In this document: positions 14,910-33,897 of the stretch, in pieces
How positions within the stretch are numbered: position 1 is the first letter of the stretch
How the letters are laid out: every line of letters starts with the position of its first letter
Source: Planctomycetota bacterium
GTDB lineage: Bacteria > Planctomycetota > Phycisphaerae > UBA1845 > UTPLA1
NCBI GenBank assembly: GCA_015654675.1
Contig: JAATGM010000050.1
Location: 1 to 64,000, forward strand
Reading direction: 5' to 3'
DNA: 64,000 nucleotides
Notes under the pieces: generated by a model
What the model saw: the letters and a program-made list of their open reading frames with translations, nothing else
Databases searched by the model: none
What the model was told of the DNA's origin: nothing
Translations under genes and position numbers: made by a program

Positions 14910-16106
14910 TCAGGCGAGGCGGCGCTGCGTGGATTTGTCGAGGAGCATCGAGAGGATGCGGTTCGGTTTTTCGAAGCGGCATAGAAGGATCATTGCAGCG
15001 ACGACGAAGGGCTTCCACGAGGCCTCGCGGTAGGTGGCGAGGCGGTAGCGCTCGAAGACGCTGGCGGCGACTTCGCCTTCCTTGCAGCTGACGCCGGTGA
15101 TGTCGGCCGGGAGGCAGTGCATGTAGAGGGCTTTACCGGCTTTTGTAAGCTGCATCATTTTTTCCGTGGTTTCCCAGTTTTTGAAACGGGCGTTGTTGGC
15201 GAGGCACTGCTTTTCGAGGGCGGCGAGCTTGTCGTTTTCCTTGGCGCGAAGAATTTTCGTGCGCTCTTCCATGACGGCGAAGGGGGCCCAGCTCTTGGGG
15301 TAGACGATGTCGGCGTCCTTGAAGGCGTCTTCCATGCTATTGGTGTGTTTGAAGGTACCGCCGGATTCTTTGGCGTGCTTCTCGCTGATCTTCAGCGTTT
15401 CGGGGACGAGGTCGTAGCCCTCGGGGTTGGCGAGGACGACGTTCATTCCGAAGCGGGTCATGAGCGTGATGACGCCCTGCGGGACGGAGAGCGGCTTGCC
15501 GTAGGAGGGCGAGTAGGCCCAGGTCATGGCGAGTTTTTTGCCGCGGAGGTTTTCGAGGGAACCGAAGGTTTTGATGAGGTGCATCAGGTCGGCCATGGCT
15601 TGGGTGGGGTGGTCGAGATCGCACTGGAGGTTGATGACGGCCGGTCGCTGTGGGAGGACGCCTTCGTGGAAACCCTCGTCGACGGCGGCAGCGACCTCGG
15701 TCATGTACTTGTGGCCTTCGCCCAGGAAGATGTCGTCGCGGATGCCGATGGCCTCGGCGGCGAAGGAGATCATGTTGGCGGTTTCGCGGACGGTCTCGCC
15801 GTGGGCGATCTGGGATTTGCCTTCGTCGAGCTCCTGCAGGGAGAGGCCGAGCAGGGCGGTGGCGGAGGCGAAGCTGAAACGCGTGCGGGTGGACTGATCG
15901 CGGAAGTTGGAAACGGCCAGGCCGGAGGTGAAGACGCGGGTGGAGATATTGGCCTTGTAGAGTTCGTGGAGGGCCTCGGCGGCGGTGAGGACGGCGAGGA
16001 GCTCGTCCTGGGTGCGGTCCCAGCTCAGGAGGAAGTCTTTGTTGTGCATGGCGGTTTTGAGGGAACCGAGCTTTTCGGCGAGGGCGTGGACGGTGGATGA
16101 GGACAT
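14910..16106 (-). CDS. ygeW: Knotted carbamoyltransferase, YgeW family
   Basis: 398 residues from the ATG at 16106, which has GGAG 8 bases upstream; E. coli YgeW is of the same size. Carbamoyltransferase motifs are in order: STRTRFSFASAT (carbamoyl-phosphate loop), HPTQAMADLMHL, and HCLPADITG. The long, divergent C-terminal half fits YgeW rather than ornithine or aspartate carbamoyltransferase. In E. coli the gene belongs to the purine-degradation locus, where it is thought to release carbamoyl phosphate from a ureido compound by phosphorolysis. A carbamate kinase gene close by at 18457 would turn that product into ATP. Upstream codons in the same frame are not needed. Confidence 0.85.
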   Translation of the reverse strand: MSSSTVHALAEKLGSLKTAMHNKDFLLSWDRTQDELLAVLTAAEALHELYKANISTRVFTSGLAVSNFRDQSTRTRFSFASATALLGLSLQELDEGKSQIAHGETVRETANMISFAAEAIGIRDDIFLGEGHKYMTEVAAAVDEGFHEGVLPQRPAVINLQCDLDHPTQAMADLMHLIKTFGSLENLRGKKLAMTWAYSPSYGKPLSVPQGVITLMTRFGMNVVLANPEGYDLVPETLKISEKHAKESGGTFKHTNSMEDAFKDADIVYPKSWAPFAVMEERTKILRAKENDKLAALEKQCLANNARFKNWETTEKMMQLTKAGKALYMHCLPADITGVSCKEGEVAASVFERYRLATYREASWKPFVVAAMILLCRFEKPNRILSMLLDKSTQRRLA

Positions 16107-16194
16107 GGGGTGCTCCGGATCTCGTTTGTCAGTTTCTCGAATCGGGGATTGTAACGGATGGGCCGCCGGGGATGAATCCTCACCGGCGCGGCTA

Positions 16195-16662
16195 TCAAGA
16201 TGGAGCTGGTAGCGAAGTTGGCAGACGAAACTTGCGCAGCGTCTCGGTCGCGCGTTCTTCACCGATCCACAGTTCGCGCGGCCACCATTTGCCGCAGGGA
16301 CAGGCGTCGTCGATAGCATCCGTCCAGACTCGCATTGCTTCGAACGCCTCGGTTTTCGCGTCGAAATACACAACGAGACACACGAAGCCGTCGCTCGCCC
16401 TGAGGAACTTGTATCCCCCAAACGAAGTTGTGCCGGCCTCTAGCAAGCCCGCCACTTCGATGAACGGCTTTGTGCCGCGTCTGATTCTGGCTTCGGCGGC
16501 GATCTGACGCCATCGGGCCACTTCGGAGGAATAGTCGCCGAACTCTCGGCCTGCGTTCAGCCAGTCGCGATCCTCGAACGCTCGCGCCGAAGTCATTTTG
16601 CAGCAACCGCATGCAGCGAGGCAGGGCAAGAGGATCGCGGTCCTGAGAATCGCGCGGGACAT
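16195..16662 (-). CDS. Small lipoprotein of unknown function
   Basis: 155 residues. The signal region MSRAILRTAILLPCLAACGC contains a lipobox (LAAC), so the mature protein should be lipid-anchored at a Cys near residue 18. The rest has no family I recognise; a CPCGKWW segment and several Trp residues are visible. GGAGAAG lies upstream of the ATG. The gene sits between the PLP-enzyme unit and ygeW on the same strand, with short gaps, so it may be co-transcribed with them. Confidence 0.65.
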   Translation of the reverse strand: MSRAILRTAILLPCLAACGCCKMTSARAFEDRDWLNAGREFGDYSSEVARWRQIAAEARIRRGTKPFIEVAGLLEAGTTSFGGYKFLRASDGFVCLVVYFDAKTEAFEAMRVWTDAIDDACPCGKWWPRELWIGEERATETLRKFRLPTSLPAPS

Positions 16663-16703
16663 GCTTTAAATTCTTCTCCAGCTTTGGATTCGACGGCTGG
16701 CGT

Positions 16704-16889
16704 TCATGGTCGCACCGAGCCGAGTACCAGAAGGATCAGCCCGAAGCCTGCCGGCACGACTTCGGCAATTTGAATACTGAGTTTGTTTTCGCCTCGGAGC
16801 GCGCCGGCGAAATCGAGGGCAAGTGCTCCAAGTCCGAAGAGGATGAATGCGATTCCCCAGATGCGCGCCAGACGGCGTCCACTCTTCAT
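16704..16889 (-). CDS. Small two-helix membrane protein, coupled to the PLP enzyme gene
   Basis: 61 residues from the ATG at 16889 (MKSGRRLARIWGIAFILFGL). Two hydrophobic stretches, about residues 10-27 and 40-58, suggest a small membrane protein. The start codon overlaps the stop codon of the PLP-enzyme gene (ATGA at 16886-16889), which supports this start and indicates translational coupling. No family is recognised. Confidence 0.55.
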   Translation of the reverse strand: MKSGRRLARIWGIAFILFGLGALALDFAGALRGENKLSIQIAEVVPAGFGLILLVLGSVRP

Positions 16890-18346
16890 GCTGTAGATGC
16901 GACGCGGCGGTTGAAGGAATCGATGGCTTTGTCCCATTCGGCGGTTTGGGCGAAGTGTTCGGTCCAGAAATCGGGGTCCCAGAGTTTTCGCAGGTCGTTC
17001 ACGTCTTTTTGCTGCTGCTCGACCCAGGTGAAGTATTTGAAGTTGTGCAGCGTTTTGCGGTCGTGATAGGTCAGCTCGCGGAGGTGGTCGATGTTTGTGC
17101 CTTCGAGGTAGCGGGCGGCGTCGGCGGTGGCGTTTGTTGCGGCGTAAGCGCCACGGTCTTTGCGGTATTCGTCAATCCGCGAGGCGTAGAGGCCCATCGA
17201 GTCGGTAAGGAGGGTGAAGAGGACGTCGCGGCCGTCCATGTCGAAGTGCTTTGCGGTTTTGATGGCTGCCACAACATTGCAGATGCCGGAGATGCCGAGG
17301 AGCGGGAGCTGGTCGACTGTGGCGCGGGGCACGCCGTTCTTTTCGAGCTGGGCGCGGCCGGCGTCTTCGTTAAAGAGGCGCATGAGGGCGATGCAATGTT
17401 CGTCGTCGATGGCGGCGACGAGGTCGGTGTTGCGGACGTTGTGGATCCAGGGGATGTGCTTGTCGCCGATGCCTTCGATGCGATGGTCACCGAAGCCGCA
17501 GGAGAGGAGCGTCGGGCATTGTTGGGCTTCGACGGCGACGACGCGAAGGTGCGGGTGCTTTGTGCGGAGGAAGTCGCCGGCGGCGATGGTGCCGGCTGAG
17601 CCGGTGGCGGAGATATAACCGGCGAGACGGCCGTTGGGTTTGCCGATAGCACGGAAGATTTCGTCGATGATTCCGCCGGTGAGGTGGTAGTGCCAGGTCG
17701 CGTTACCCATCTCCTCGAACTGGTTGAAGATGACGCAATCGGGGCGGGTGCGGCGGATTTCCCAGCACTTGTCGTAGATCTCTTTGACGTTTGACTCACA
17801 GCCGGGGGTCGCGATCACCTCGGCGTTGATGGACTTGAGCCACTCAAAGCGCTCGCGCGACATGCCTTCGGGGAGGATGGCGACGGCGGTGCAGCCGAGC
17901 AGGGCGCAGTCGAATGCGCCGCCGCGACAATAGTTGCCGGTGCTGGGCCAGACGGCTTTCTGGGTGGTCGGGTCGAACTGGCCGGTGACCAGGCGCGGGA
18001 TGAGGCAGCCGAAGGCCGCGCCGACCTTATGGGCTCCGGTGGGGAAGTGCTTGCCGACGATGCCGATGATTCGTGCGGGGACGCCGGTGAGCGCGGAGGG
18101 GAACTCGATCCAGTTGCCGTGGTTGAAGCCACCGCCGCGTTCTACGGGTTCGTTTTTCCAGGTGATGCGGAAGAGGTTGGCCGGATCGACGTCCCAGAGG
18201 CCGACTTTGGCGAGGCGGTCTTTGACGGTCTGCGGGATGGTGGAGGGGTCTTTTTGCTGGGCGAAGGTGGGGATAACGATTTTTCGCTCGCGGCAATGGC
18301 GGGCGGTTCGGTCGAGGGCTTTTTCGTCGATCTTGAAGGGCAGCAC
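16886..18346 (-). CDS. Fold-type II PLP-dependent enzyme (candidate ammonia-lyase/ygeX counterpart)
   Basis: About 486 residues. The PLP lysine lies in HFPTGAHKVGAAFGCLIPRL, a TrpB/cysteine-synthase-like context. Further fold-II features are the STGNYCRGGAFDCALLG phosphate/substrate region and GSAGTIAAGDFL. In E. coli the gene after ygeW is ygeX, 2,3-diaminopropionate ammonia-lyase (about 400 residues). This protein is longer, and I do not recognise the YgeX signature, so equivalence is an inference from position. The GTG at 18346 has GGAG 8 bases upstream and leaves room for a divergent promoter; an ATG at 18409 is the alternative. The gene diverges from the carbamate kinase gene. Confidence 0.75.
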   Translation of the reverse strand: MLPFKIDEKALDRTARHCRERKIVIPTFAQQKDPSTIPQTVKDRLAKVGLWDVDPANLFRITWKNEPVERGGGFNHGNWIEFPSALTGVPARIIGIVGKHFPTGAHKVGAAFGCLIPRLVTGQFDPTTQKAVWPSTGNYCRGGAFDCALLGCTAVAILPEGMSRERFEWLKSINAEVIATPGCESNVKEIYDKCWEIRRTRPDCVIFNQFEEMGNATWHYHLTGGIIDEIFRAIGKPNGRLAGYISATGSAGTIAAGDFLRTKHPHLRVVAVEAQQCPTLLSCGFGDHRIEGIGDKHIPWIHNVRNTDLVAAIDDEHCIALMRLFNEDAGRAQLEKNGVPRATVDQLPLLGISGICNVVAAIKTAKHFDMDGRDVLFTLLTDSMGLYASRIDEYRKDRGAYAATNATADAARYLEGTNIDHLRELTYHDRKTLHNFKYFTWVEQQQKDVNDLRKLWDPDFWTEHFAQTAEWDKAIDSFNRRVASTA

Positions 18347-18456
18347 GGGCGGCTCCGGGGTTGCGAAGTTCTGCGCGCCGCGCGGAATTTCGCACGCCGC
18401 GGAATACATAGTATGCGCCCCGAGCGGGGGTGCGTATAGTAGGCCGCGTGAACGCG

Positions 18457-19404
18457 ATGGAACGCATGATGGTCGTGGCGCTGGGCGGAAACGCGATTTC
18501 GCCGCCGGACGCCGAGGGGAATATCTCGCAACAATTCGACGCGGCGCGGACGAGCGCGGCGCGGATCGCCGACCTGATACAGGCCGGATACCAGCCGGTG
18601 ATCACGCACGGGAACGGGCCGCAGGTGGGGAACGTTCTGCGGCGAGTCGAACTGGCGGCGCACGAGCTTTACACGCTATCGCTGGACATCTGCGTGGCGG
18701 ATACGCAGAGCGGGATCGGCTACATGATCGGGCAGTGCGTGATGAACGAACTGCGGCGGCGCGGGGTGAATCGGCCGGTGGCGACGGTGGTGACTTGCGT
18801 GGAGGTGGAGCGCGACGATCCGGCGTTTGAGCGGCCGAGCAAGCCGATCGGGCGGTTCTATTCGGCGGATAAGGCCGGGGAGATGCAGGAGCAGTACGGT
18901 TGGCGGATGGTGGAGGACGCGGGGCGCGGGTATCGGCGCGTGGTTGCTTCGCCGATGCCGCGGCGGATCGTGGAGATGGAGACGATCCGGCGGATGGTGA
19001 TCGCGGGAGAGTTGCTGGTGGCGGCTGGCGGCGGCGGGATTCCGGTGGTGCGAGACGAGCGCGGAGAATTGAAGGGGGTTGATGCGATCATTGATAAGGA
19101 TCGGACGGCGGCGCTTTTGGCGGCGGGACTCGGGGCGCGGCTGCTGGTGATTGCGACGGAAGTGGATCGCGTGGCTATCGATTTTGGAAAGCCCAGTCAG
19201 CGCGCGGTTGAGCGGATGACGGTGGCGGAAGCGCGGAAACATTTACGCGACGGGCAGTTTCCGGCCGGGTCGATGGGGCCGAAGATTGAGGCGGCGGTGG
19301 AGTTTGTTTCGCGAGTGGAGGGGGGGCGGGTTTTGATTTGCGATCTGGCGGGGTTGGCTGAGGCGGGTGGGGGGAACGGCGGGACGTGGGTGGTGAGGGA
19401 GTAA
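18457..19404 (+). CDS. yqeA: Carbamate kinase
   Basis: About 315 residues. Signature motifs are VVALGGNAISPPDA at the start, ITHGNGPQVGNVLRRVELAA, the VAAGGGGIPVV nucleotide loop, and the DKDRTAALLA segment. The enzyme converts carbamoyl phosphate plus ADP into ATP, CO2 and ammonia. Together with the YgeW carbamoyltransferase this would be the ATP-yielding step of the block. I prefer the ATG at 18457 because codons before it have no homology to the family; the ATG at 18466 is also possible. The ArcC/YqeA assignment rests on the neighbourhood. Confidence 0.9.
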   Translation: MERMMVVALGGNAISPPDAEGNISQQFDAARTSAARIADLIQAGYQPVITHGNGPQVGNVLRRVELAAHELYTLSLDICVADTQSGIGYMIGQCVMNELRRRGVNRPVATVVTCVEVERDDPAFERPSKPIGRFYSADKAGEMQEQYGWRMVEDAGRGYRRVVASPMPRRIVEMETIRRMVIAGELLVAAGGGGIPVVRDERGELKGVDAIIDKDRTAALLAAGLGARLLVIATEVDRVAIDFGKPSQRAVERMTVAEARKHLRDGQFPAGSMGPKIEAAVEFVSRVEGGRVLICDLAGLAEAGGGNGGTWVVRE

Positions 19405-19409
19405 GTGAG

Positions 19410-20753
19410 TTAATCAGCGCCGGCTGCATTCTGCTTTGCATCGTGGGCTTCTGCGGTCTTCACAGCGTTCCGCACTGTCTGCTTCAGTTTCGCCCATCGT
19501 GTTGGACCCAGAACTCGCTTTATGAGTCTGACGTCACGCGAAAAATCTGGATCTTCTTCACGCCGGAGAAAATCGTCATAGCGGTAGATTAAGTCACGCT
19601 GAATGTTCCATGGCGGCTCCGCCTCAGTCAATCGGTCCGCGAGCTGGGCCAAGGAATCCGCCACGATTTGAGCGAGCGCGGGGTCGTCCTTGATCGAAGC
19701 ACGTAAGATCGCATCGATCAGGTCATCGAACGCAAATAGCTCGTTCGTTCGGAATACGATTCGCGCTTCAGCTCGCAGCTTTTTCATTGCTTCTGTAGTT
19801 TTCGCTTCGCGAATTGGGCGAATGGCGGATTCGAATAGTGCAAATTGTTCCGCGGTTTGCACGAATCTGTCACCCAATTGCGATGGGTCGAGTGCATTGA
19901 GTTCGCTTCGTGCAAGTTGAATTGTCTGAATCGCATTTAGGCTGGCGCTGATCGATATCGCCGACGCCGCGGCGAATCGTGCATCGGGCGAAAGCTTGTT
20001 GTTCGACACGCATGCTTGAAGAAAATCATCGATCTGCTCGGATCGCTTCAGTCGGCTTATTGCCTTGATGAGGTTGGCGGGTGACCGTCCTGGCGCGGCG
20101 CGCTGCAATTCGGTCAACGTCAATTTGCCGGTCGGTGCAAACTGAGACGTGTCGAGTTCTCCGGCGATTTCGTGGTGATAGGTGCAGGCCTGGTCCGCCG
20201 ACATCAGCCAGAGGTTCATCGCCAGTCGTTCCGAGTCTGAGAGGAGCGGCGTCGGTTTGGGGCGCATTTCCAGGTAGCCGGTGTCGCATACGAGCTGCCA
20301 CGCGAAATCGCCTTCGGTGATCCGCGACCCTACACACCCGCCGGGGAAACAGTCGTAGCATTCTCGACTCAATAGCTTAGCCCGCAGTGCCGGTAATGCG
20401 GCTGTTCGATCGGTTTGCGCCAGGCAATAGAGTCCCATTGCACGGACGATTGGATTGGAATCAGATATCAGTCGCTCATAGATTTTTGTGTCGCCGACGG
20501 AGCGAATTTCCTTGGAGAGCAGATAGAACGGACCCGGTTCGCCTCCATCGTAAACCGCACTGCCGGTCACGCGTTCAAGTTTTCTAGTCCTCGAGATTAA
20601 CTCGTCAGCGAGAGATGGACGACTTGAAGCGTCGCCCGCCAATGCGTAGGCGAATGCTGGGCCTGCAAGTAGAAACACGAGAAGCGTTGAGGCCAGGCGA
20701 TTGGGCGGCTGCAATGTCGGTAATCCGATTGACGACGCGTGAGTGCTTTTCAT
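19410..20753 (-). CDS. Exported helical protein of unknown function inside the purine block
   Basis: 447 residues starting with an N-terminal hydrophobic segment (LASTLLVFLLAGPAFAYALA) that reads as a signal peptide. The remainder is mostly alpha-helical with alternating Leu/Ala, reminiscent of HEAT-like repeats (NPIVRAMGLYCLAQ), but I cannot assign a family. One CYDCFPGGC cluster could form a disulfide or bind a metal. It converges with the carbamate kinase gene, with 5 bases between their stops. It does not look like part of the purine pathway and may be an insertion into the block. Confidence 0.6.
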   Translation of the reverse strand: MKSTHASSIGLPTLQPPNRLASTLLVFLLAGPAFAYALAGDASSRPSLADELISRTRKLERVTGSAVYDGGEPGPFYLLSKEIRSVGDTKIYERLISDSNPIVRAMGLYCLAQTDRTAALPALRAKLLSRECYDCFPGGCVGSRITEGDFAWQLVCDTGYLEMRPKPTPLLSDSERLAMNLWLMSADQACTYHHEIAGELDTSQFAPTGKLTLTELQRAAPGRSPANLIKAISRLKRSEQIDDFLQACVSNNKLSPDARFAAASAISISASLNAIQTIQLARSELNALDPSQLGDRFVQTAEQFALFESAIRPIREAKTTEAMKKLRAEARIVFRTNELFAFDDLIDAILRASIKDDPALAQIVADSLAQLADRLTEAEPPWNIQRDLIYRYDDFLRREEDPDFSRDVRLIKRVLGPTRWAKLKQTVRNAVKTAEAHDAKQNAAGAD

Positions 20754-20846
20754 GAGTGTGCTCCGTCAGTGGGCCGGATGCCGGATGGACAGCGATATGG
20801 TAGGCTGGGCCGTAGGAGTCAGGCAACTTGAGCGCGTTGTTGAGGA

Positions 20847-22091
20847 ATGCCAGTGTCGCTCGTCGGTAAGTTGGTTTGTGTGCAGTGTGGGGCGGAGTAT
20901 TCGGAGGACGGGGCTTGGACTTGTTCGAAGTGCGGGCCGGATGAGGGGATTCTCGACGTTCAATTTGACTTGGTGCGTGCGGCGAAGACTTTGACGCGGG
21001 CGGGGCTCGCGACTCGGACTCGGTCGCATTGGCGGTATCGCGAGTTGTTGCCGCTAGATGAGGCGTTTTGTCCGTCGGATGGGGATGTCGGGTGGACGCC
21101 TTTGATTGAGGCGCCGCGGTTGGCTGCGGCGCTCGGGATTGGGCGGTTGCGGTTGAAGGATGATGGGCGGAATCCGTCGGGGTCGTTCAAGGATCGGCCC
21201 AGCTCCGTCGGGGTGATGCGGGCTTTGCAGGAGGGGGCGAAGTCGATCGCGTGTGCTTCGACGGGGAATGCGGCGAGCAGTCTCGGGCGGGCGGCGGCTG
21301 CGGCGGGGATGTCTTGTTACATTTTTGTTCCGAAGAGCTGCCCGGATGGGAAGCTGGCGCAGTTGCTGGCTTATGGGGCGTGCGTGTTCAAGGTGATGGG
21401 GACGTACGCCGAGGCGTACGAGCTTTGTAATCAGGCCTGCCGCGAGTTTGGGTGGTACAACCGGAATTGCGCGATCAATCCTTATCTTGTTGAGGGGAAA
21501 AAGACGGGTGGGCTCGAGGTGGCCGAGCAGTGCGCGGATGATCCGCCGGATTGGGTGGCGGCGAGCGTTGGCGATGGTTGCTCGATTGCGGGAATGGCGA
21601 CGGGGATTGCGGAGATGAAGGCGGTGGGGGTTGTTTCGTGGTCGGCCAAGATGCTGGGGGTGCAGGCGGCGGGGGTTGCGCCGGTGGCGGAGGCGATGAA
21701 GACGGGACGGCTGGATCGCGCCGGCAGTGGGACAACCTATGCGGACAGCATCAACTGTCCGGTGCCGCGGAATTGGCGCAAGGCGGTGAATGCGGTGCGA
21801 GAGAGCGGCGGGGCGTATGTGACGGTGAGCGATGAGGAGATCATGGAGGCGGTACGGGCGACTGGTCGATTGACGGGAGTATTTGCTGAGCCGGCGGCGG
21901 CGACGAGCGTAGCGGGGATTGTTGCTGGTCGGCGGGCTGGGCTGCTCGACGGGAAGTCGTCGGTGGTGGCGATGATTACCGGGAACGGGTTGAAGGATAT
22001 TGCGGGGGCGCTGAAGGCGGTGGGTGGGCCGAATGAGATTCGGCCGGAGTTGGGCGAGGTGAGGCGAGTGGTGGAGGGGCGGAAGGGCTGA
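20847..22091 (+). CDS. Threonine-synthase-like PLP enzyme with N-terminal zinc ribbon
   Basis: 414 residues. The N-terminus has a zinc ribbon of two CxxC pairs (CVQCG...CSKCG), as in many bacterial threonine synthases. The PLP lysine lies in NPSGSFKDRPSSVGV, followed by the ACASTGNAASSLGRAAAAAG phosphate loop and VVAMITGNGLKD. Sequence alone says threonine synthase or a close fold-type II lyase. It sits 4 bases before an ssnA-like gene on the same strand. The position suggests it may act on an amino acid formed during purine breakdown, such as diaminopropionate, rather than in threonine synthesis. That is inference. GAGGA precedes the start, and a GTG 9 bases further in would also fit. Confidence 0.8.
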   Translation: MPVSLVGKLVCVQCGAEYSEDGAWTCSKCGPDEGILDVQFDLVRAAKTLTRAGLATRTRSHWRYRELLPLDEAFCPSDGDVGWTPLIEAPRLAAALGIGRLRLKDDGRNPSGSFKDRPSSVGVMRALQEGAKSIACASTGNAASSLGRAAAAAGMSCYIFVPKSCPDGKLAQLLAYGACVFKVMGTYAEAYELCNQACREFGWYNRNCAINPYLVEGKKTGGLEVAEQCADDPPDWVAASVGDGCSIAGMATGIAEMKAVGVVSWSAKMLGVQAAGVAPVAEAMKTGRLDRAGSGTTYADSINCPVPRNWRKAVNAVRESGGAYVTVSDEEIMEAVRATGRLTGVFAEPAAATSVAGIVAGRRAGLLDGKSSVVAMITGNGLKDIAGALKAVGGPNEIRPELGEVRRVVEGRKG

Positions 22092-22095
22092 CGCG

Positions 22096-23412: not shown

Positions 23413-23438
23413 TTTCGGCGACCTCGATTCAGAGCGGA

Positions 23439-24041
23439 TCAAATGTTCGCTTCGTAGTCATTTGGGGTGTCGATGTCGCGGGTGATGGCGGGGGTGGGGC
23501 ATTCGATCAGCTGCAGTTTGTCGGGGTAGCGATGTGGGAGGGTGTTGAGGCCGGTGTCGGCTTCGCGGGAGTGGACGAAGTCGGCGAGGGGGGCGGGGAA
23601 GATGATGGGGTGGCCGCGCTTTTGGGCGCGCGATGCGATGACGATGTGGTCGGGGTTGGCGCGGAAGGCGTTGATACACGCGTTGAAGTCGGTGGTTGGG
23701 ATGCCGGGCTGGTCGGCGGGGCAGACCAGGTAGCCGTCGGTTGCTGCTGGTGGGGCTCGGTCGCGCCAGGCGTCGAGGGCGAGACGAATGGAGTCGATCA
23801 TTTCGCTGTCGGGGTCGGCGTTTACTATTGCGAATGCTTTGGGCGGGAATTGGGGTAGCTGCGCTTCTACCAATGGACTCACTGCAACGGCGATGCCTCG
23901 CACTTCGGCGGCGGCGAGGGGTTCGAGGACGGCGAGGAGCATGGGGCGGCCGGCGATGTCGAGGAGTTGTTTGGTTTTTCCCATGCGGCGGGATTGGCCG
24001 GCGGCGGGGACGATGGCGAAGACTCGTGGGGTCGTGCTCAT
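23439..24041 (-). CDS. mocA: Molybdenum cofactor cytidylyltransferase (MocA/YgfJ type)
   Basis: About 200 residues with the NTP-transferase start VFAIVPAAGQSRRMGKTKQL, the DQPG metal/nucleotide motif in VCPADQPGIPTTDF, and RGHPIIFP. The family attaches CMP to molybdopterin to make the cytosine dinucleotide cofactor used by some xanthine-dehydrogenase-family enzymes. That matches the two molybdenum hydroxylases further on. The ATG at 24041 overlaps the stop of the ygfK-like gene (ATGA), so the two are translationally coupled. Confidence 0.85.
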   Translation of the reverse strand: MSTTPRVFAIVPAAGQSRRMGKTKQLLDIAGRPMLLAVLEPLAAAEVRGIAVAVSPLVEAQLPQFPPKAFAIVNADPDSEMIDSIRLALDAWRDRAPPAATDGYLVCPADQPGIPTTDFNACINAFRANPDHIVIASRAQKRGHPIIFPAPLADFVHSREADTGLNTLPHRYPDKLQLIECPTPAITRDIDTPNDYEANI

Positions 24042-26008
24042 GACGCCCCTGCCCACGTCGCGTTCAGTTGATTAATTCGCGAGCGGTCGAGGATGCCGGT
24101 GTGGAGGTGGCGCATGGTGTGGTAGGCCCATGTGTTGAGGGTGTGGGTGGTGGGATTTCCGTTGAGGAATTGGATCGCTTTGGGGGTGTGATCGGATGCG
24201 GCGATCGCGGCTTCGACGACTTTGTCTCGGAAGGTGTTTGTTTTCGGAGTTAGTTGGAGCTCGAAGTGTTCGCCTTTGATGCGGCCTTTGATCCAGTTGG
24301 GACCGACGAGGAAGCCGTCGCGCGGGGCGGCGCGGTTCCAGGATTCTTCGGTGCCATAGAAGGCGGGTTTTTTTATGTAGGGGCCGCCGTATTCGGGGCA
24401 GAAGGTGTCGCAGTTGCCGCATTCGTTGCAAAAGTCGGCGTAGTTGGCGATCTGCATAGCTTCCTTGATCTCGAAGCGGCGCGGCGGGCCGGGCTTCCAT
24501 GAGCCGTCGGGGGCGATGATGAGGTCGTGGTAGTCGAATGCCACGAGCGGCGTGGGGTAGGTGAAGTTGGCGGCGTTGGGGCAGACGGGCATGCACTTGT
24601 CGCAGGTGACGCAGTCGAAGGTGACGAGGTGGGAGTCGATGCGTTTGGGGACGGCGCGGTTTTTTTCGGCGCGGTAGCGAGGATCGTTGCGGGTTCGCTC
24701 TGCCGCTCGGGTGGTGTTGGTCAGCGCGGCTTCGTGCACTGAAGTGCGGGCGTCGGGCGGTGCGGACTTCAGGATGAAGTCGTCAATACTTGTTGCGCCT
24801 AGTTTGCGCATTTCTGCCGCGAGCTTTTCCATGTAGCCGGGCAGGCGGCCGTAGCCGCCGGGGCGGAGGAGGTCGCTGCTGATGGTGATGGGGCAGAAGC
24901 CGCAGGCGACTGCTTGAGGGAAGTTCTGCTGGTCGATGCCGGCGGAGAACGAGATGGGGACGTCGGGACCGATGGCGCGGCGGAACTCGTCGGTGAGCGT
25001 CATGGTGATGACGTGCAGGGGTTGGCCGGAGAGGTACATGACTTTTTCGGCCGGCTTGAAGAAGTCGCGATGGTTGAGGACTTCGAGGGTGTTGGAGAAT
25101 TTGAAACCGACGCGGCGGTTGCGGGCGCGGCCGAACGCGAGCAGGCGTCGGGCGAGTTGGATGGACTCATCGAATGGGACTACGGCGGCGTAGGCGGTGG
25201 GGTTGATGGTGAGATCGGTAAAGCCGAGGACGTTGAAGAGGAGGTGTTCGAGTTTTTCTTTGCCCAGCGTGGGCGGGTTCATTTTGACGATGACGTCGAA
25301 GTCGCAGTCGGCGATGAGGAACTCGCAGATGCGTTCGATTTCGTCGGCGGGGCAGCCGTGAAACGTCGACAGGGTGATGCTGTCGGAGAGGTGGGTCGCG
25401 AAGGGGAGATCGCGGGCGGCGGCGAATTGTTGTGGGATTTCGGCGCGGAGTTTTTCGACGATGGGGCCGGCGTTGCGCATGCCGTCGAGGAAGCCGCGGA
25501 CTTTGGCGCTCTGGATACCTTTCAGGTCGTAGCCGACGCTGAGGTCGAGGATGTAGTCGCCGGGTTTGCCGTCGAGGGTGGCGTTGGTGTGGGGGTGGCT
25601 GCGGCGGAACATGTCGATGAGCATGGCGCCGGCGACGTATTCGCGAACAGAGTCGTGGACGAGGAGCTCCTGCGACCACTCGATGTTGTAGCCAACGTTT
25701 GTGAGGTCGATGCAGGGGCGGCCGATGGTGAGGGTGTCGTTGATCTGGACAGTCTTGAGTTCGAGGATGCGGCCGCCGGCTGCGTAGGAGAGGAGCAGGT
25801 TCTGGGCCATCTGGGTGTGGGGGCCGGCGGCTGGGCCCGAAGGATTTCCGGCGGACTTGCCGTGGAATGAGACGGACATGTCGGGCGCGTCGGGGCGCGG
25901 GAGGTACCACTTGCGGCGCGGGAGTTCGAAGAGGGCGTCTTGTCGTTGCGGCTCGATGAAGAGGCGGGTGACGAGGTCGGCGAACGGGGCGGGGATGAGC
26001 TCGGCCAT
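24038..26008 (-). CDS. ygfK: YgfK-like iron-sulfur protein, short form without the NAD(P)H/FAD module
   Basis: 656 residues. The N-terminal two-thirds are a dihydroorotate-dehydrogenase-like barrel (KTVQINDTLTIGRPCIDLTN, TFHGCPADEIERICEFLI, KMNPPTLGKEKLEHLL). Two [4Fe-4S] clusters follow: CVTCDKCMPVCP near residue 476 and CNECGNCDTFCP near residue 530. E. coli YgfK, called a selenate-reductase subunit but located in the purine locus, is about 1,030 residues and has an added pyridine-nucleotide oxidoreductase region. That region is missing here, so electrons must come from or go to another carrier. The gene shares a promoter region with the divergent xdhD-like gene. Confidence 0.8.
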   Translation of the reverse strand: MAELIPAPFADLVTRLFIEPQRQDALFELPRRKWYLPRPDAPDMSVSFHGKSAGNPSGPAAGPHTQMAQNLLLSYAAGGRILELKTVQINDTLTIGRPCIDLTNVGYNIEWSQELLVHDSVREYVAGAMLIDMFRRSHPHTNATLDGKPGDYILDLSVGYDLKGIQSAKVRGFLDGMRNAGPIVEKLRAEIPQQFAAARDLPFATHLSDSITLSTFHGCPADEIERICEFLIADCDFDVIVKMNPPTLGKEKLEHLLFNVLGFTDLTINPTAYAAVVPFDESIQLARRLLAFGRARNRRVGFKFSNTLEVLNHRDFFKPAEKVMYLSGQPLHVITMTLTDEFRRAIGPDVPISFSAGIDQQNFPQAVACGFCPITISSDLLRPGGYGRLPGYMEKLAAEMRKLGATSIDDFILKSAPPDARTSVHEAALTNTTRAAERTRNDPRYRAEKNRAVPKRIDSHLVTFDCVTCDKCMPVCPNAANFTYPTPLVAFDYHDLIIAPDGSWKPGPPRRFEIKEAMQIANYADFCNECGNCDTFCPEYGGPYIKKPAFYGTEESWNRAAPRDGFLVGPNWIKGRIKGEHFELQLTPKTNTFRDKVVEAAIAASDHTPKAIQFLNGNPTTHTLNTWAYHTMRHLHTGILDRSRINQLNATWAGAS

Positions 26009-26038
26009 GTGTTGACGCTTTCTTTCGATTCACTTTAT

Positions 26039-26055
26039 CCGTCCGGCGCGGACGG
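26039..26055. promoter_or_regulatory. Inverted repeat in the ygfK-xdhD divergent region
   Basis: CCGTCC at 26039-26044 and GGACGG at 26050-26055 flank GGCGC. It lies between the two divergent genes, about 30 bases from the ygfK start. It could be an operator or a small hairpin; no regulator is assigned. Confidence 0.3.
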
Positions 26056-26107
26056 GACAAATTGTGCGTCGGAATCGCAAGGTTAGAGGACGCGGCACGG
26101 CCGTTCA

Positions 26108-26151: not shown

Positions 26152-28803
26152 ATGGCGGTGATTCCGCGAGAATCGGGCGTTTCGGTCGGGGAAAAACAAC
26201 GGGTCGCGTTGACGCTCAATGGGCGATCGGCTTCGGCTGAGATTCAGCCGGAGCTGACGCTGCTTTCGATGCTGCGCGATTCGTTTGATCTCATCTCGCC
26301 GAAGAACGGCTGCGAGCCGATGGGGCAGTGCGGGTGCTGCACGGTTTTGATTGATGGGAAGCCGCGGCTTTCGTGCACGATGAAGGCGACGAGCGCGGCG
26401 GGGAAGTCGGTGACGACGCTCGAGGGTTTGCCGGAGGAGACTCGGAAGCAGATTGCGGATTGTTTCGTTCATGCGGGCGGGGTGCAGTGCGGGTTCTGCA
26501 TTCCTGGGATTGCTATGCGGGCGCATGCGCTTTGCGAGAAGAATGCCAGCCCTTCGCGCGACGAGATCACTAACGACTTGCGGGCGCATCTTTGCCGCTG
26601 CACGGGATACACGAAGATTGTGGATGCGATTGAACTTGTGGCGAGTGTGCGGCGCGGGGCACCGATGCCTGAGAATGGATGCGTCGGCAAGGTCGGCGAA
26701 CGGCTGGCGCGGTACAGCGGGCATGAGGCGACGCTGGGGACGCGGCGGTTCATTGATGACATCAAGATCCCGGGAATGGTGTTTGCTGCGCCGCGGCTGA
26801 GCGATCATCCGCGAGCGCTGGTGAAGCGGATTGACGCTGCGCGGGCGCTGGCGGTTGATGGCGTGTTGCGCGTTGTGACGGCAAAGGATGTGCCGGGCGA
26901 GCGGTTTGTCGGGTTGATCACGAATGACTGGCCGGTGTTCATCGCGGAGGGCGAAGAGACGCGGTACGTCGGTGATGTGCTAGCGTTCGTTGTCGCAGGG
27001 GATGTGCACACGGCTCGCAAGGCGGCCGATCTGATTGAGATTGATTACGAAATACGCCAGCCGGTGACGACGCCGGATGAGGGGATGCGGCCGGATGCTC
27101 CGAAGATTCATCCGAAGGGGAATCTGCTCTCGCGGGCAGCGCTGATTCGGGGCGGGCCGGATGCGGTAATTGCGAAGTCGGCGCACGTGGTCGAGGGGAC
27201 CTGGCAGACGCAGTGCATCGAGCACATGTTTCTGGAGCCCGAGGCATGCATCGCGTATCCGAGGGGGGATGGGCTGCACGTAATGACGCAGGGGCAGGGG
27301 ATCTTCGACGATCGGCGGCAGATCGCGCGGATGATGGGGTGGCCGATCGAGCGATTGTCGGCGGAACTGGTGTCGAACGGCGGGGCGTTTGGCGGCAAGG
27401 AAGACATGTCGGTTCAGGCGCAGACGGCGCTGTGCGCCCATCTGGTGGGCAAGCCGGTGAAGTGCGTGCTGACGCGCGAGCAGAGTCTGCGGGTGCACCC
27501 GAAGCGGCACCCGGTGCGGATCGGACTCAAGGTGGGCTGCGATGCAGAGGGGCGGCTGACAGCGGTGCGGGCGCGGATCGTGGGCGATAAGGGGGCGTAT
27601 GCGTCGGTCGGGGCGAAGGTGTTGGAGCGCGCGGCGGGGCACGCGATCGGGCCGTATCGCTGCGAGAATATTGATATCGAGTCGCTAGCTGTGTACACAA
27701 ATAATCCGCCGAATGGGGCGATGCGCGGGTTTGGGGCGAACCAGGCGGCGTACGCGATTGAGGGAGCGCTGGACATGCTGGCCGAGAAGGTCGGCATTGA
27801 CGGATGGGAGATTCGATCGCGAAACATCCTTGAGCCGGGCGATCGGTTCTGCACCGGGCAGCGGTTGACGAAGCCGTTTGGGCTGCGGAAGACGCTCGAG
27901 TCGGTTAAGGAGATTTATCGCGGGGCGAAGTACGCGGGGATTGCCTGCGGGATCAAGAACGTCGGGATTGGGAACGGGTTGCCGGAAGCGGGCCGGGCGA
28001 GTCTGACCATCGAGCAGGATGGGACGATCATGCTCCGGACCGGACATACCGAGATGGGGCAGGGATTGTTTACGGTTGCAATTCAGACTGCCGTGCAGGA
28101 GACCGGGATTCCCGCCGAGTTTTTTGAGGCGCGATGCGACACGGTGGATCCCAATGACTGCGGGCAGACGACGGGCAGCAGGGGGACTGTATTGACTTGT
28201 CATGCGGTGATTGACGCGTGCAAGAAATTCAATGCGGATTGGGAGGCGGTTCGGGCGATGGACGTGCTCGGCGCATTGAAGAAGCTGGCCGGGAAAAAGT
28301 ATCTGGGTGAGTGGAAGTGTTATCCGACGGACAAGTTTGGGGCGGATGTGGCGGAGCCGAAGACGCATTTGACCTACGGGTTTGCGACGCAGGTGTGCAT
28401 TCTGGATGACGAGGGGAAGCTAAAGAAGTTTGTTGCGGCGCACGATGTGGGGCGGGTGATGAACCCGACGCTGCTGGAGGGGCAGCTTGAGGGGTCGATT
28501 CATATGGGGCTTGGCTATGCTCTGACCGAGGAGATGGTGTATGAGCAGGGGCGGCTGGTGACGGACGACGTGAAGTCGTGCGGTGTGCTGCGGGCGCATC
28601 ACATGCCTGAGATCGAGATGATTCTGATCGAGGAACCCGATCCGGAGTGTCCGTATGGGGCGCGCGGCGTGGCCGAGATCGGTTTGGTGCCGACGGCGCC
28701 GGCGGTGGCGGGGGCCTTGTACAAATTTGACGGGGTGCGGCGAACGACGCTTCCAATGAAAGATTCGCCGGCGGCGCGGGCGATTCTCGGGAAGAAGGGC
28801 TGA
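26152..28803 (+). CDS. xdhD: XdhD-type molybdenum hydroxylase (fused 2Fe-2S and Moco domains)
   Basis: 883 residues. An N-terminal domain binds two [2Fe-2S] clusters: CEPMGQCGCC and, later, CGFC plus CRC in AHLCRCTGYTKIVDAIEL. It is fused directly to the molybdopterin-binding part (NGGAFGGKEDMSVQ, GAMRGFGANQAAYAIEGALD, GARGVAEIGLVPTAP with the catalytic Glu). The FAD domain of classical xanthine dehydrogenase is absent. This architecture matches the selenium-dependent xanthine dehydrogenase/XdhD group in purine-catabolism clusters. It should hydroxylate a purine or related heterocycle in the cytoplasm. Selenium is not encoded as selenocysteine and cannot be read from the sequence; it would be a labile ligand. 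It is followed 17 bases later by xdhC. Confidence 0.85.
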   Translation: MAVIPRESGVSVGEKQRVALTLNGRSASAEIQPELTLLSMLRDSFDLISPKNGCEPMGQCGCCTVLIDGKPRLSCTMKATSAAGKSVTTLEGLPEETRKQIADCFVHAGGVQCGFCIPGIAMRAHALCEKNASPSRDEITNDLRAHLCRCTGYTKIVDAIELVASVRRGAPMPENGCVGKVGERLARYSGHEATLGTRRFIDDIKIPGMVFAAPRLSDHPRALVKRIDAARALAVDGVLRVVTAKDVPGERFVGLITNDWPVFIAEGEETRYVGDVLAFVVAGDVHTARKAADLIEIDYEIRQPVTTPDEGMRPDAPKIHPKGNLLSRAALIRGGPDAVIAKSAHVVEGTWQTQCIEHMFLEPEACIAYPRGDGLHVMTQGQGIFDDRRQIARMMGWPIERLSAELVSNGGAFGGKEDMSVQAQTALCAHLVGKPVKCVLTREQSLRVHPKRHPVRIGLKVGCDAEGRLTAVRARIVGDKGAYASVGAKVLERAAGHAIGPYRCENIDIESLAVYTNNPPNGAMRGFGANQAAYAIEGALDMLAEKVGIDGWEIRSRNILEPGDRFCTGQRLTKPFGLRKTLESVKEIYRGAKYAGIACGIKNVGIGNGLPEAGRASLTIEQDGTIMLRTGHTEMGQGLFTVAIQTAVQETGIPAEFFEARCDTVDPNDCGQTTGSRGTVLTCHAVIDACKKFNADWEAVRAMDVLGALKKLAGKKYLGEWKCYPTDKFGADVAEPKTHLTYGFATQVCILDDEGKLKKFVAAHDVGRVMNPTLLEGQLEGSIHMGLGYALTEEMVYEQGRLVTDDVKSCGVLRAHHMPEIEMILIEEPDPECPYGARGVAEIGLVPTAPAVAGALYKFDGVRRTTLPMKDSPAARAILGKKG

Positions 28804-28820: not shown

Positions 28821-29777
28821 ATGAGTTCGTTCGCTTCACTCTTTGAGTCGCTCGTCAGGCAGATTGAGCATGGGCGGCGCGTGGCGGTTTGCGCCGTTGT
28901 CGGGGCCAGCGGGTCGACACCGCAATCGCCGGGGGCGACTTTGCTGTTGCATGAGAACGGGACGACGGAGGGGACGCTCGGTGGCGGGTGCGTCGAGGCG
29001 GAGGTTCGCAAGCGAGCAATCGGGATGTTGCAGCGGGGCGAGTCTGGGTTACTGAGGTTCAGTCTGGATCATGATTATGGATGGGACGATGGGCTGATCT
29101 GCGGCGGCAACATGATTGTTGCAGTGCAGACCATCTCGGACGCCGAAACTGCGAAGCCGTTTGCGGATGCGCGGAACTCGCTGGAGATTGGGCGGCCGGC
29201 TTGTGTGGGAATTCGCGTGCTGGAAGACGGGTTGCCGTGCGAATATCGACTGCATCTTGAAGCGCCGGCGGAGTTGGTGATTGCCGGGGCGGGGCATGTT
29301 GGGGCGGCGCTGGCGAAGCTGGCGATCGGGTTGAACTTCGATGTCAGCGTGATTGATGATCGGGCGGACCTGGCTTGCGCGGACCGGTTGCCCGCGCCGA
29401 TCAAGGCGGTCGTGGGGGACATAGAGAAATCGCTGCGGGACTGGCCGATCGGGGCGGGGACGTTTGTTGTGATCGTGACGCGCGGGCATAACCATGACGA
29501 GGCGGCGCTGCACGCAGTAATAGATTCGCCGGCACGGTATATCGGGATGATCGGCAGCCGGCGAAAGGTGAAGCTGATTTTTGACGATCTGGTCGCGTTG
29601 GGGGTTGATCCGGCCAAGCTGGAGCGGGTGCATTCGCCGATCGGGCTGAAGATCGGGAGCGTGACGGTGCCCGAGATCGCGGTCAGCATCGCTGCTGAGT
29701 TGATCCAGGTGCGGCGGAGCGATCCACCGACGCGGGTCGAAGGGCCGTTTGAAGTGGCTTCGACCGGCTTGTCGTAG
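28821..29777 (+). CDS. xdhC: XdhC/CoxI-family molybdenum hydroxylase maturation factor
   Basis: 318 residues. The N-terminal XdhC motif is present (VVGASGSTPQSPGATLLLHE, GTLGGGCVEAEV), and the C-terminal Rossmann domain shows LVIAGAGHVGAAL and YIGMIGSRRKVKLI. The family sulfurates and inserts the molybdenum cofactor into xanthine-dehydrogenase-type enzymes. Its place directly after the xdhD-like gene and close to a three-subunit enzyme fits that job for one or both. Spacing indicates an operon with xdhD. Confidence 0.9.
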   Translation: MSSFASLFESLVRQIEHGRRVAVCAVVGASGSTPQSPGATLLLHENGTTEGTLGGGCVEAEVRKRAIGMLQRGESGLLRFSLDHDYGWDDGLICGGNMIVAVQTISDAETAKPFADARNSLEIGRPACVGIRVLEDGLPCEYRLHLEAPAELVIAGAGHVGAALAKLAIGLNFDVSVIDDRADLACADRLPAPIKAVVGDIEKSLRDWPIGAGTFVVIVTRGHNHDEAALHAVIDSPARYIGMIGSRRKVKLIFDDLVALGVDPAKLERVHSPIGLKIGSVTVPEIAVSIAAELIQVRRSDPPTRVEGPFEVASTGLS

Positions 29778-30405: not shown

Positions 30406-31224
30406 CTATGCTTTGTCGGCCAACCGGTAGAAGAGCACACGGCTCAGGACCGTTTCACGGTAGGCGGCGGTGGAGCGCATGTCGTTGATGGGGGCGATGT
30501 CGTTCTTGAGGATGTCACGGATTTCTTCGGGGGATTTGAACTTTTGGCCTTTTTGCAAGGCGGACTCGAGGTTGCGACAGCGGCAGACGTAGGGTGCGAC
30601 GCTGTTGGCGACCACCCGCCAGCCCTTTTCGTCGTTTACGACGGCAACGCCGACTTTAGTGATGGTCTGAGCGGCGCGGGCGCCTACTTTTTCGAACCAC
30701 TCGGCCTTGCGCGTGCGGCGAGGGATCTGGATGGCAACGATCAGTTCGTCGGGGAGGCGGACGGTTTTTTTGTAGCCGGTGTAGTAGCCGTCTAGTTGGA
30801 CTTCACGGCGGCCGCGTGTCGATTGAAGGACGACGGTGGCATCGTAGGCCATGAGGACAGGGACGCCGTCGGCGGCGGGGGAGCCGTTGCCGATGTTGCC
30901 GGCCCAGGTGCCGCGAGTCTGAATCTGCATTGCGCCGACCTGGCGGGCGGCTTCGGCGAGCAGCGGGAAGGCACGCGAGACTTCGGGGCTTGCGATGACA
31001 TCCCAATAAGTCGTGAGCGCACCGAGTTCGAGCGTGTCGGCCGTGAGCCGCATTGCGGCCAATTCACCGCCGAGTTGTGAGAGATCGAGAAGTGCGAGTT
31101 TTTCCTTGGGCTTGTGGTGCCAGGAGACGAGCAGGTCGGTACCGCCGGCGATCGGCGTCGGAGTTGGCGTCGCCGCCATGAGGGCGAGGGCGTCGTGCAG
31201 CGTGTAAGGGCGGTGGACTTGCAC
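30406..31224 (-). CDS. Xanthine dehydrogenase-family FAD-binding subunit
   Basis: 272 residues from a GTG at 31224. The FAD-binding loop is PIAGGTDLLVSW, and the second FAD motif is GTWAGNIGNGSPAADGVPVL. The C-terminal CO-dehydrogenase flavoprotein-like domain follows. It is the medium (XdhB/CoxM/YgfM-like) subunit and passes electrons from the iron-sulfur clusters to NAD or another acceptor. The GTG lies 2 bases after the stop of the 2Fe-2S gene, so all three subunits form one operon in the order large, iron-sulfur, FAD. Confidence 0.85.
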   Translation of the reverse strand: MQVHRPYTLHDALALMAATPTPTPIAGGTDLLVSWHHKPKEKLALLDLSQLGGELAAMRLTADTLELGALTTYWDVIASPEVSRAFPLLAEAARQVGAMQIQTRGTWAGNIGNGSPAADGVPVLMAYDATVVLQSTRGRREVQLDGYYTGYKKTVRLPDELIVAIQIPRRTRKAEWFEKVGARAAQTITKVGVAVVNDEKGWRVVANSVAPYVCRCRNLESALQKGQKFKSPEEIRDILKNDIAPINDMRSTAAYRETVLSRVLFYRLADKA

Positions 31225-31226
31225 GC

Positions 31227-31689
<463 letters not shown>

Positions 31690-31697
<8 letters not shown>

Positions 31698-33897
31698 GGC
31701 CTCGGCCCTCCGTGGCCTTGAGGAGCAATTCAGGCGTTACTGGTATTTCGTTTATGGTTGTTGTGACCGCGCGGCTGATGGCATTCACAATGGCCGGTGC
31801 GGGGCCGTCCATCGGTAGTTCGCCGATGCCTTTCGCGCCGCCGGGGCCCCAGTGTGACGGACGCTCTTCGAAGACGACGCGGATGGGCGGGAGGTCGCCG
31901 GCTGAAGGGATGACGTAGTTTGTCATCTGGCAGTTTTTCATGGCGCCGTCTTCCAGAACGACGTTTTCGTAGAGCGCCCAGCCAATGCCCTGAACCACGC
32001 CGCCGGCGATCTGTCCAGTGGCGAGGGTGGTATTGAGGACACGGCCGACTTCCTGCAAGGCGACGAAGTCGGTGACGCGAACGCGGCACGTTCGCAGATC
32101 GACCTCGACGTCGGCGACGTAGGTGGCCCAGGAATAGGTGGCGTAGGCGTCGCCGCGATAGGTTTTGTCGTCCCACTGGATCGACGCGGGCTTTTGATAT
32201 TTGGCGCGGCCGACGAGCGATTTTCCGGGGAGAGATGCGTGGCGGCGGATGTCATCGCTGATCTCAGGATCGCCAGACTTTCGGCCGAGTTGGTGGAGGA
32301 GGTCGTCGCAGGCCTGCTCAATGAGCTTGCCGACGACCATGGCGGTGCGGCTGGCGACGGTGGGGCCGCTGTTGGGGACGCGCGAAGTGTCGGGGGTGGC
32401 GACGCGGACCTGTTCGGTGGGGATGCCGAGTCGCTCGGCGACGACTTGCGTGAGAATGGTGGTGGTTCCCTGGCCCATATCGGTTTGAGCGGTCTGAAGT
32501 TCGACAGTGCCGTCGGGTTTACCTTCGATCCAGACTTCGGAAGCCAGGTAGGTTTCGCCGCCGCCGGTAAAGCCCGCGCCGTGATGGAACGTCGCGAATC
32601 CAATGCCGCGGCGGAGGAATGGGTGCGACTTGTTGAACTCGGCGTGTGATTGAGTTCTCGCTTTGTATTGGGCGAGGTCGAGGGCTCGGTCCATCAGGGC
32701 GGGGAGGTCTGTGGGTTCTTTGTAGATCTGGCCGGTCGCAAGTGGCTGGCCGGTACGGACGAGGTTGCGGCGGCGGAGTTCGACCGGGTCGATCCCGATT
32801 CTGGCGGCGATGACATCCATGTGGCGTTCAATGGCGAAAATGGTTTGCGGTGCGCCGAAGCCGCGGAAGGCGCCGTAAGGGGGTGAGTTGGTAAGCCGGG
32901 CTTCGCCGCGGATATGGATGTTCTCACAGAAATAGGGGCCGGCGGCGTGAATACATCCGCGGCTGAGGACGACGGGGGAGAGCGTGACATACGCGCCGCC
33001 GTCGAGGAGGACATCGATCTCCATTGCGAGCAGGCGGCCGTCTTTGTCGAGTGCGGTGCGGTGCCGCGTGCGGCTGGGATGGCGCTTGGTGGTGACGGCC
33101 ATGTCTTCCTGGCGGTCGTAGATCATCTTCACGGGCGCGCCGGATTTTTCGGCGAGCAGGGCGGCGTGGATGGCGAGCAGTGAGGGATATTCTTCCTTGC
33201 CGCCGAAGCCGCCGCCGACTGGGGACTGGATGACGCGGAAGGCATCGCGAGAGCGACCGAAGAGGTGCGTCAATGCATCGAGGACGTAGTAAGGACATTG
33301 CATCGAGCCGCGAACGGTGAGCCGGCCATCCTGCCATTGTGCGAGCATGCCTTGCGTCTCGAGATAGACGTGCTCCTGCGAGCCGGTGACATATTCGCCT
33401 TCGATGATGTGTGCGGCGCGGGCAAAGACAGGGCCGGGGTCGCCCTGGCGAATGTCGATGTGCTTGAGGACATTGTCGGATTTGTATTGGATGAGATCAG
33501 GGGTGAGAGGCGCGGCCGGATCGAGGATGGCTGGCAAAGGTTCCACGTCGACGCGAATGGCTCGAAGCGCATCACGAAGCTTGTGCACGGACGGGTGGGC
33601 GAGAAGCAGGATGGGTTCGTGTTTGTGTCGAACCTCTCCGGCCGCGAGGACGGGCTGATCGACATCAATGAGCTTGAGTTGATTGGGGCCAGGGATGTCG
33701 CGATGGTCGACGATTGTGATGTCGTTCCAATCGAAGGCCGGGTCAAAGTGGATGTCACGGATTTTTCCGCGCGGGACGCTGCTGCGTACGGTGGCACCGT
33801 GCCAAGCGCCCGGAGTCGGGAGGTCGTCCACATAGGCGGCGCGGCCGGCGAGCTTGTCGAGTCCATCGATGCGAGGAAGGTCAGCGCCGGCGGGCAT
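31690..33897 (-). CDS. Xanthine dehydrogenase-family molybdopterin-binding subunit
   Basis: 735 residues. The first domain has the DGLDKLAGRAAYVDDLPTPG start typical of the family. The Moco domains show GGGFGGKEEYPSLLAIHAAL, YGAFRGFGAPQTIFAIERHM, QTDMGQGTTTILTQ, and the catalytic Glu in GAKGIGELPMDGPAPAI. It would hydroxylate a purine or similar ring. It is separate from the fused XdhD-type enzyme at 26152, so the block encodes two molybdenum hydroxylases of different build. A 300-base gap upstream separates it from the divergent histidine kinase gene. Confidence 0.88.

Follow-up and report, generated by a model that had tools for sequence, protein, structure and literature searches.

We analysed a 64,000-nucleotide stretch (hereafter the window) of contig JAATGM010000050.1 from a Planctomycetota bacterium of the class Phycisphaerae (assembly GCA_015654675.1). 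Positions 14910-33897 hold the gene content of the reductive uric-acid (yanthine) pathway, as demonstrated in E. coli and C. difficile (PMC12507026). Within this block lie two genes for fold-II pyridoxal phosphate (PLP) enzymes, here called PLP507 and ThrCw, at the place where the initial annotation had put a single diaminopropionate ammonia-lyase, YgeX, in E. coli, as is indeed seen in strain K-12. The genes of the block are as follows.

14910..16091, minus strand: YgeW, knotted carbamoyltransferase (674.8 bits, cut-off 453)
16886..18409, minus strand: PLP507, fold-II PLP enzyme of 507 residues
18430..19404, plus strand: carbamate kinase (YqeA role), divergent from PLP507 (PRK12352, 362.7 bits, cut-off 266)
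20847..22091, plus strand: ThrCw, threonine-synthase-derived fold-II PLP enzyme of 414 residues
22096..23412, plus strand: SsnA amidohydrolase (PRK07203, by far the best match at 408.5 bits, cut-off 444)
23439..24056, minus strand: MobA-like NTP transferase (MocA role, molybdenum cofactor), a Pfam-level match
24038..26008, minus strand: short YgfK-type reductase of 656 residues (TIGR03315, 355.8 bits, below the full-length cut-off of 835)
26152..28803, plus strand: selenium-dependent-type xanthine dehydrogenase, fused Mo/Fe-S chain (XdhD role; TIGR03311, 948 bits, cut-off 830)
28821..29777, plus strand: XdhC-family maturation factor (profile match)
29804-30397: LOG-family (TIGR00730) phosphoribohydrolase-like gene, within the purine block
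30406..33897, minus strand: second xanthine-dehydrogenase-like set, with FAD (30406-31236), Fe-S (31227-31697) and Mo (31690-33897) subunits; profile matches for FAD and Mo, an open reading frame for Fe-S

In the reductive pathway, uric acid is converted to yanthine by XdhD, dearomatised by YgfK and ring-opened by SsnA and HyuA to 2,3-diureidopropionate; YgeW and YgeY then strip the two ureido groups to give 2,3-diaminopropionate (DAP), which YgeX turns into pyruvate (PMC12507026). The pathway was worked out in 2025, and the order of ureido removal and its stereochemistry were stated to be open (PMC12990295). SsnA, the short YgfK, xanthine dehydrogenase, YgeW, YgeY and a HyuA homologue, the set by which we judged membership of the pathway, are all found in our genome. 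YgeY (contig C52, beside a MoaA-type gene, 50-51% identical to E. coli YgeY) and the HyuA homologue (contig C58, 33% identical to E. coli HyuA) complete its uric-acid route. The window shares YgeW, carbamate kinase, SsnA, a YgfK-type reductase, xanthine dehydrogenase and a MocA-type protein with the E. coli cluster ygeW-ygeX-ygeY-hyuA-yqeA ... ygfK-ssnA-ygfM-xdhD (PMC12507026, PMC12990295), but it has no YgeX, carries two other fold-II PLP enzymes and a YgfK of 656 rather than 1032 residues, and its YgeY and HyuA are unlinked.

The genome, which is 96% complete, encodes ten proteins that match the Pfam PALP family PF00291 (cut-off 35 bits). By our reading of their sequences these are PLP507, ThrCw, a second threonine synthase (ThrC) on contig C11, TrpB, cystathionine beta-synthase (CBS), several CysK-like proteins and one resembling ACC (1-aminocyclopropane-1-carboxylate) deaminase. 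PLP507 and ThrCw are both full-length members of the superfamily (68.5 and 248.5 bits), and both fall far below the 276-bit cut-off of the YgeX profile NF006058 (15.9 and 27.7 bits). None of the ten reaches that cut-off; E. coli was detected in the same control search. The initial annotation had placed two fold-II PLP genes in the block, neither of them a YgeX, and both open reading frames were confirmed. Each resembles YgeX in its superfamily, catalytic lysine and genomic company, but differs in score and in lacking the aspartate of the YgeX TDGN loop, and there are two proteins rather than one. The C11 protein is the canonical ThrC of the genome, scoring 319.6 bits against the threonine-synthase profile TIGR00260 versus 189.6 bits for ThrCw (cut-off 167.1) and matching solved ThrCs at about 335 versus about 200 bits; its locus holds no pathway gene across 20 kb. 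The scenario that the initial annotation had set against its own proposal, in which one of the two proteins is the canonical and only ThrC and a true ygeX lies elsewhere, therefore does not describe this genome.

ThrCw had been called threonine-synthase-like with a zinc ribbon, and both parts of that description are accurate: it passes TIGR00260, and the ribbon cysteines C11, C14, C26 and C29 are real (among relatives C26 is invariant, and C11 and C14 are conserved in at least 90%). It resembles ThrC (TIGR00260; PDB 1UIM, 2ZSJ, 2C2B) in its fold and in the GSFKDR motif around the catalytic lysine K115, and its AlphaFold model (pLDDT 90.4) is ThrC-like, with Z-scores of 43 to 2c2b and 39 to 1uim. 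Its closest named relatives are from Planctomycetota/Phycisphaerae (71% identity), and the family signature comprises STGNA, EGKK, GDG and ADS. We take Arg160 (T. thermophilus ThrC numbering, after the work on 1UIM and 1V7C) to be the arginine that holds the substrate phosphate of O-phosphohomoserine. When aligned with solved ThrCs, this position is arginine in 13 of 13 canonical rows and threonine, leucine or methionine in 57 of 57 ThrCw rows. All 57 also replace Thr88 by Ala, Asn188 by Asp, Thr239-Ala240 by Asp-Ser and Gln164 by Lys. ThrCw thus differs from ThrC in having lost the equivalents of Arg160, Thr88 and Asn188, in reading ADS rather than ATA, and in keeping company with the uric-acid pathway. 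Where YgeX has the aspartate of TDGN, ThrCw has STGN, with T139. In an independent genome set, the signature was present in all 23 high-scoring matches and missing from the lower-scoring ones, whose sequences mostly resemble canonical ThrC. Tree building placed the sample's canonical ThrCs in one group (9 rows, support 100/97) that includes no ThrCw row, though the backbone among the ThrCw lineages was not resolved. Judged by these residues, ThrCw is not a normal threonine synthase but appears to be a threonine-synthase descendant unable to bind O-phosphohomoserine in the normal way. That it and its relatives pass TIGR00260 despite the lost substrate arginine makes them an annotation trap.

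PLP507 combines a cysteine-synthase/CBS-like core (residues about 55-436) with a conserved C-terminal helical extension of about 70 residues carrying KYFTWVEQQ. The start given in the initial annotation, 18346, is an in-frame GTG, and it is plausible because residues 1-22 have low confidence in the structure model (AlphaFold, overall pLDDT 88.6). The Schiff-base lysine K128 lies in FPTGAHK, the substrate loop reads WPSTGNYCRGG, and an NQFEEFGN motif is present. In 48 sequences from many phyla (57-73% identical to the window protein), FPTG, H127 and K128 are conserved in all and A126 in 44; HK128, WPSTGN, CRGG, NQF, TGSAGT and KYFTWVEQQ are likewise invariant or nearly so, and T157 of STGN, at the position of the YgeX TDGN aspartate, is found in 48/48. 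The closest named relatives are from Planctomycetota/Phycisphaerae (72-73%). PLP507 lies below all NCBIfam cut-offs (cysK, 101.6 bits against 350.95; CBS, 70.4 bits against 510.25), and its model matches the core of O-acetylserine sulfhydrylase, CBS and beta-cyanoalanine synthase (Z 33-36 over about 310 residues, rmsd about 2-3), with O-ureidoserine synthase also among the fold matches listed. With this group it shares the modelled core fold, the STGN and NQF motifs and, presumably, beta-substitution or elimination chemistry; it differs in its low identity (19-28%), its FPTGAHK lysine motif, its C-terminal extension and its sub-threshold profile scores. PLP507 is an undescribed family of about 500 residues, nearest to cysteine synthase/CBS by profile and fold. 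Because all expected fold-II catalytic features are present, we predict that it is active, and it should catalyse beta-elimination, beta-replacement or racemisation on a free alpha-amino acid. The initial annotation had read its PTGAHK lysine context as TrpB-like. The motif is real and conserved, but the label has to be dropped: no TrpB family was found among NCBIfam matches at E up to 0.01, and its resemblance to the TrpB of this genome is confined to the GAHK lysine context. Nor does TrpB figure in the list of 50 fold matches to PLP507, which by itself excludes nothing.

The distribution of these proteins within the phylum was assessed in 392 genomes, with SsnA called at E up to 1e-60. A clear score gap (at least 297 bits versus at most 85 bits) sets 29 genomes with PLP507 apart from the rest; SsnA is found in 26, of which 21 also have PLP507 (both, PLP507 only, SsnA only, neither: 21/8/5/358; Fisher p 8e-24). 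Counted by taxonomic family, 14 are shared of the 17 with PLP507 and the 16 with SsnA. Three further PLP507 genomes (G192, G019 and G367) have a fragmented or truncated SsnA beside PLP507. YgeX was found in 0/29 of the PLP507 genomes, and a true YgeX occurs in three of the five genomes with SsnA and no PLP507, all three of one genus. Directly beside PLP507 in some planctomycetes we noticed a third PALP family ('PALP8', about 440-480 residues, with no NCBIfam match at E 1e-20), apparently in ThrCw's place (L062:7827-9275, L068:5080-6414, L069:10615-12015, and also L058, L063, L064 and L067).

We then turned to other lineages by a scan of GTDB genomes. Its loci were chosen by their PLP507 match and the best 80 taken, so that they show the company PLP507 keeps and not its frequency among SsnA genomes, which is addressed by the 392-genome sample and for that one phylum. 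About a dozen phyla contribute to the 80 loci (Phycisphaerae, Latescibacterota, Elusimicrobia, Bacteroidales, Anaerolineae, Acidobacteria, Holophagaceae, Gammaproteobacteria, Ignavibacteria, Halanaerobiales and others). Not counting ThrCw, 55 of the loci carry one or more pathway genes; ThrCw itself is in 41, all but two of which (39/41) also hold a pathway gene or carbamate kinase (CK). Examples are the operons CK-YgeW-YgeY-SsnA-ThrCw (L137), CK-YgeW-YgeY-YgeX-PLP507 (L224) and ThrCw-SsnA-YgfK-XDH-YgeW-PLP507-YgeY-CK (L250; XDH, xanthine dehydrogenase). Thirty of these PLP507 genomes, all outside the phylum sample, were also checked as wholes, 21 of them with neither a pathway gene nor ThrCw at the PLP507 locus. 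SsnA was found in 29/30, ThrCw in 23/30, YgeX in 7/30, and ThrCw or YgeX in 27/30; a genome with ThrCw tends to lack YgeX and vice versa (Fisher 0.03, uncorrected for phylogeny). Where PLP507 loci of Elusimicrobia lack pathway genes, a recurrent run of neighbours that includes a tRNA-nucleotidyltransferase-like gene was considered as an alternative context and judged unrelated; SsnA lies elsewhere in those genomes. Some clusters (L051:3296-5538, L058:1-2174, L069:12049-14252 and L198:15200-17342) have a CN_hydrolase and an AllC-like M20 amidohydrolase in place of YgeW and YgeY, and may remove the ureido groups by hydrolysis alone.

This co-occurrence strongly supports the membership of PLP507 and ThrCw in the uric-acid pathway. 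The most economical interpretation is that two enzymes share the work of YgeX: PLP507 and a partner lyase (ThrCw, locally another PALP protein, or YgeX itself) would replace the one-enzyme YgeX step, to which we assign a probability of roughly 60%. Substrates, products, stereochemistry and the division of labour we infer as follows. The upstream enzymes would yield 2,3-diureidopropionate, and YgeW and YgeY would convert it to DAP. ThrCw would bind DAP as a PLP aldimine at K115, eliminate the beta-amino group and release pyruvate and ammonia. PLP507 would carry out a second PLP step, on DAP or a mono-ureido precursor, using its apparently intact fold-II beta-elimination site (K128, STGN, NQF); most likely it would be a lyase or a racemase dealing with the enantiomer that is beyond the reach of ThrCw. 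ThrCw is most likely the 2,3-diaminopropionate ammonia-lyase, and it is the better candidate for this role because it mostly alternates with YgeX. PLP507 is not a simple substitute for YgeX, since seven of the 30 genomes outside the phylum sample carry both, and the replacement of YgeX is therefore not strict. The earlier suggestion, that either protein could take over the YgeX step or that the two could form a different branch for the amino acid released by YgeW, finds partial support: both share the pathway in many genomes and could plausibly cover the step as a pair. Under the split, genomes with only an E. coli-type YgeX would need no PLP507, and most others have PLP507 plus one partner lyase. 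According to earlier work as cited in PMC12507026, YgeX is equally active on D- and L-DAP. More specifically, PLP507 may have a new activity, as a D-DAP lyase, DAP racemase or albizziin lyase, and together with a ThrC-derived ammonia-lyase specific for the L form it would make up the last step of the pathway in about a dozen phyla; this version is tentative, and we would not be surprised to see it fail.

Several observations weigh against the split. In three of the seven genomes with both PLP507 and YgeX, ThrCw is present as well, and in 3/30 neither ThrCw nor YgeX accompanies PLP507. The partner in some genomes of the phylum is the third PALP family and not ThrCw, the alternation statistics carry no correction for phylogeny, and the HyuA homologue of our genome sits in a pyrimidine-type locus. 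PLP507 homologues also occur on Rhizobium and Bosea plasmids outside any uric-acid cluster. We take Asp120 in the TDGN loop of YgeX to be the base for the D isomer, and this aspartate is missing in both the PLP507 and the ThrCw families. Its loss from the YgeX proteins that coexist with PLP507 was sought as support for a split by enantiomer, and this failed: the aspartate is kept in the YgeX proteins checked, except one that reads Y (L180).

The Bosea vaviloviae plasmid carries a YgeX homologue interrupted by an in-frame stop (L050:17680-18915), a few genes from its PLP507 homologue. Genes for RidA, an M20 hydrolase and a TauE/SafE exporter are also nearby and no uric-acid gene is, and the locus possibly serves the catabolism of legume diaminopropionate derivatives. 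The presence of PLP507 near a disrupted YgeX, away from uric-acid genes, suggests that the common theme is diaminopropionate or its derivatives and not purines as such.

We weighed the split against other assignments of the two proteins. PLP507 could itself be the diaminopropionate lyase, with ThrCw otherwise engaged, as a serine/threonine deaminase or in handling side products. Of the two proteins PLP507 is the steadier companion of the pathway, with SsnA present in 29 of the 30 PLP507 genomes of other lineages, and it is never found together with YgeX in the phylum sample; its coexistence with YgeX elsewhere, with the two genes adjacent in L224, and the tendency of ThrCw and YgeX to alternate make this assignment unlikely. 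Similarly improbable is that PLP507 acts as a beta-lyase on the mono-ureido amino acid albizziin, giving urea or carbamate plus pyruvate and bypassing YgeY, while ThrCw handles DAP. Its fold is nearest to the CysK/CBS/beta-cyanoalanine synthase group, with O-ureidoserine synthase in the same list, and 6/13 PLP507 genomes tested lack a YgeY-level match (G278, G305, G161, G367, G003 and G107). However, many loci encode YgeY immediately next to PLP507 (L190, L195, L196, L203 and L250), which a bypass would make needless, and YgeY-less clusters hold other M20 and CN_hydrolase genes (L051, L069 and L198). Ordinary cysteine synthase and threonine synthase paralogues, in the cluster by chance, would fit the automatic label that ThrCw earns by passing TIGR00260, but this is very hard to credit given the canonical ThrC and several CysK-like proteins elsewhere in the genome, the substrate arginine lost from ThrCw, the distance of PLP507 from every CysK/CBS cut-off, and the co-occurrence with SsnA across phyla.

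The rest of the window offers some further observations. The open reading frame of YgeW extends upstream to 16421, with homology beginning at about residue 110, and the ThrCw stop and the SsnA start are 4 bases apart. The short YgfK (24038-26008) aligns mainly with positions up to about 400 of the YgfK profile, and a different electron donor is likely. The three-subunit xanthine-dehydrogenase-like set adjoins the fused selenium-type enzyme, and its candidate roles are xanthine oxidation or yanthine formation. No Rfam elements were found between positions 12000 and 36000. Further along, 39508-44362 holds a polyhydroxyalkanoate block (PhaC class III synthase, thiolase, short-chain dehydrogenase and a PHB-accumulation regulator).

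The pathway and the fold are known already; for the proposed exchange of YgeX for two undescribed subfamilies we found no description in the open-licence literature, although one may exist elsewhere. Our literature search gave nothing usable on a DAP racemase or an albizziin lyase. A published survey scored YgeX by PF00291 alone (PMC12507026), and since this counts ThrCw, PLP507 and YgeX alike, the variant would be hidden in it. The two proteins would carry threonine or cysteine synthase annotations; automatic annotation would label ThrCw thrC, and auxotrophy predictions could err where it is the only match. If our reading holds, the pathway would extend, with another last step, to Phycisphaerae, Elusimicrobia, Bacteroidales, Anaerolineae, Acidobacteria, Ignavibacteria and others, and PLP507 would serve as a sequence marker for it. 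Comparison of the two-enzyme with the one-enzyme form would then be a direct handle on stereochemistry, and should PLP507 prove to be a new activity paired with an L-specific ThrC-derived lyase, it would reveal the enantiomer and the mono-ureido intermediate that the pathway produces.

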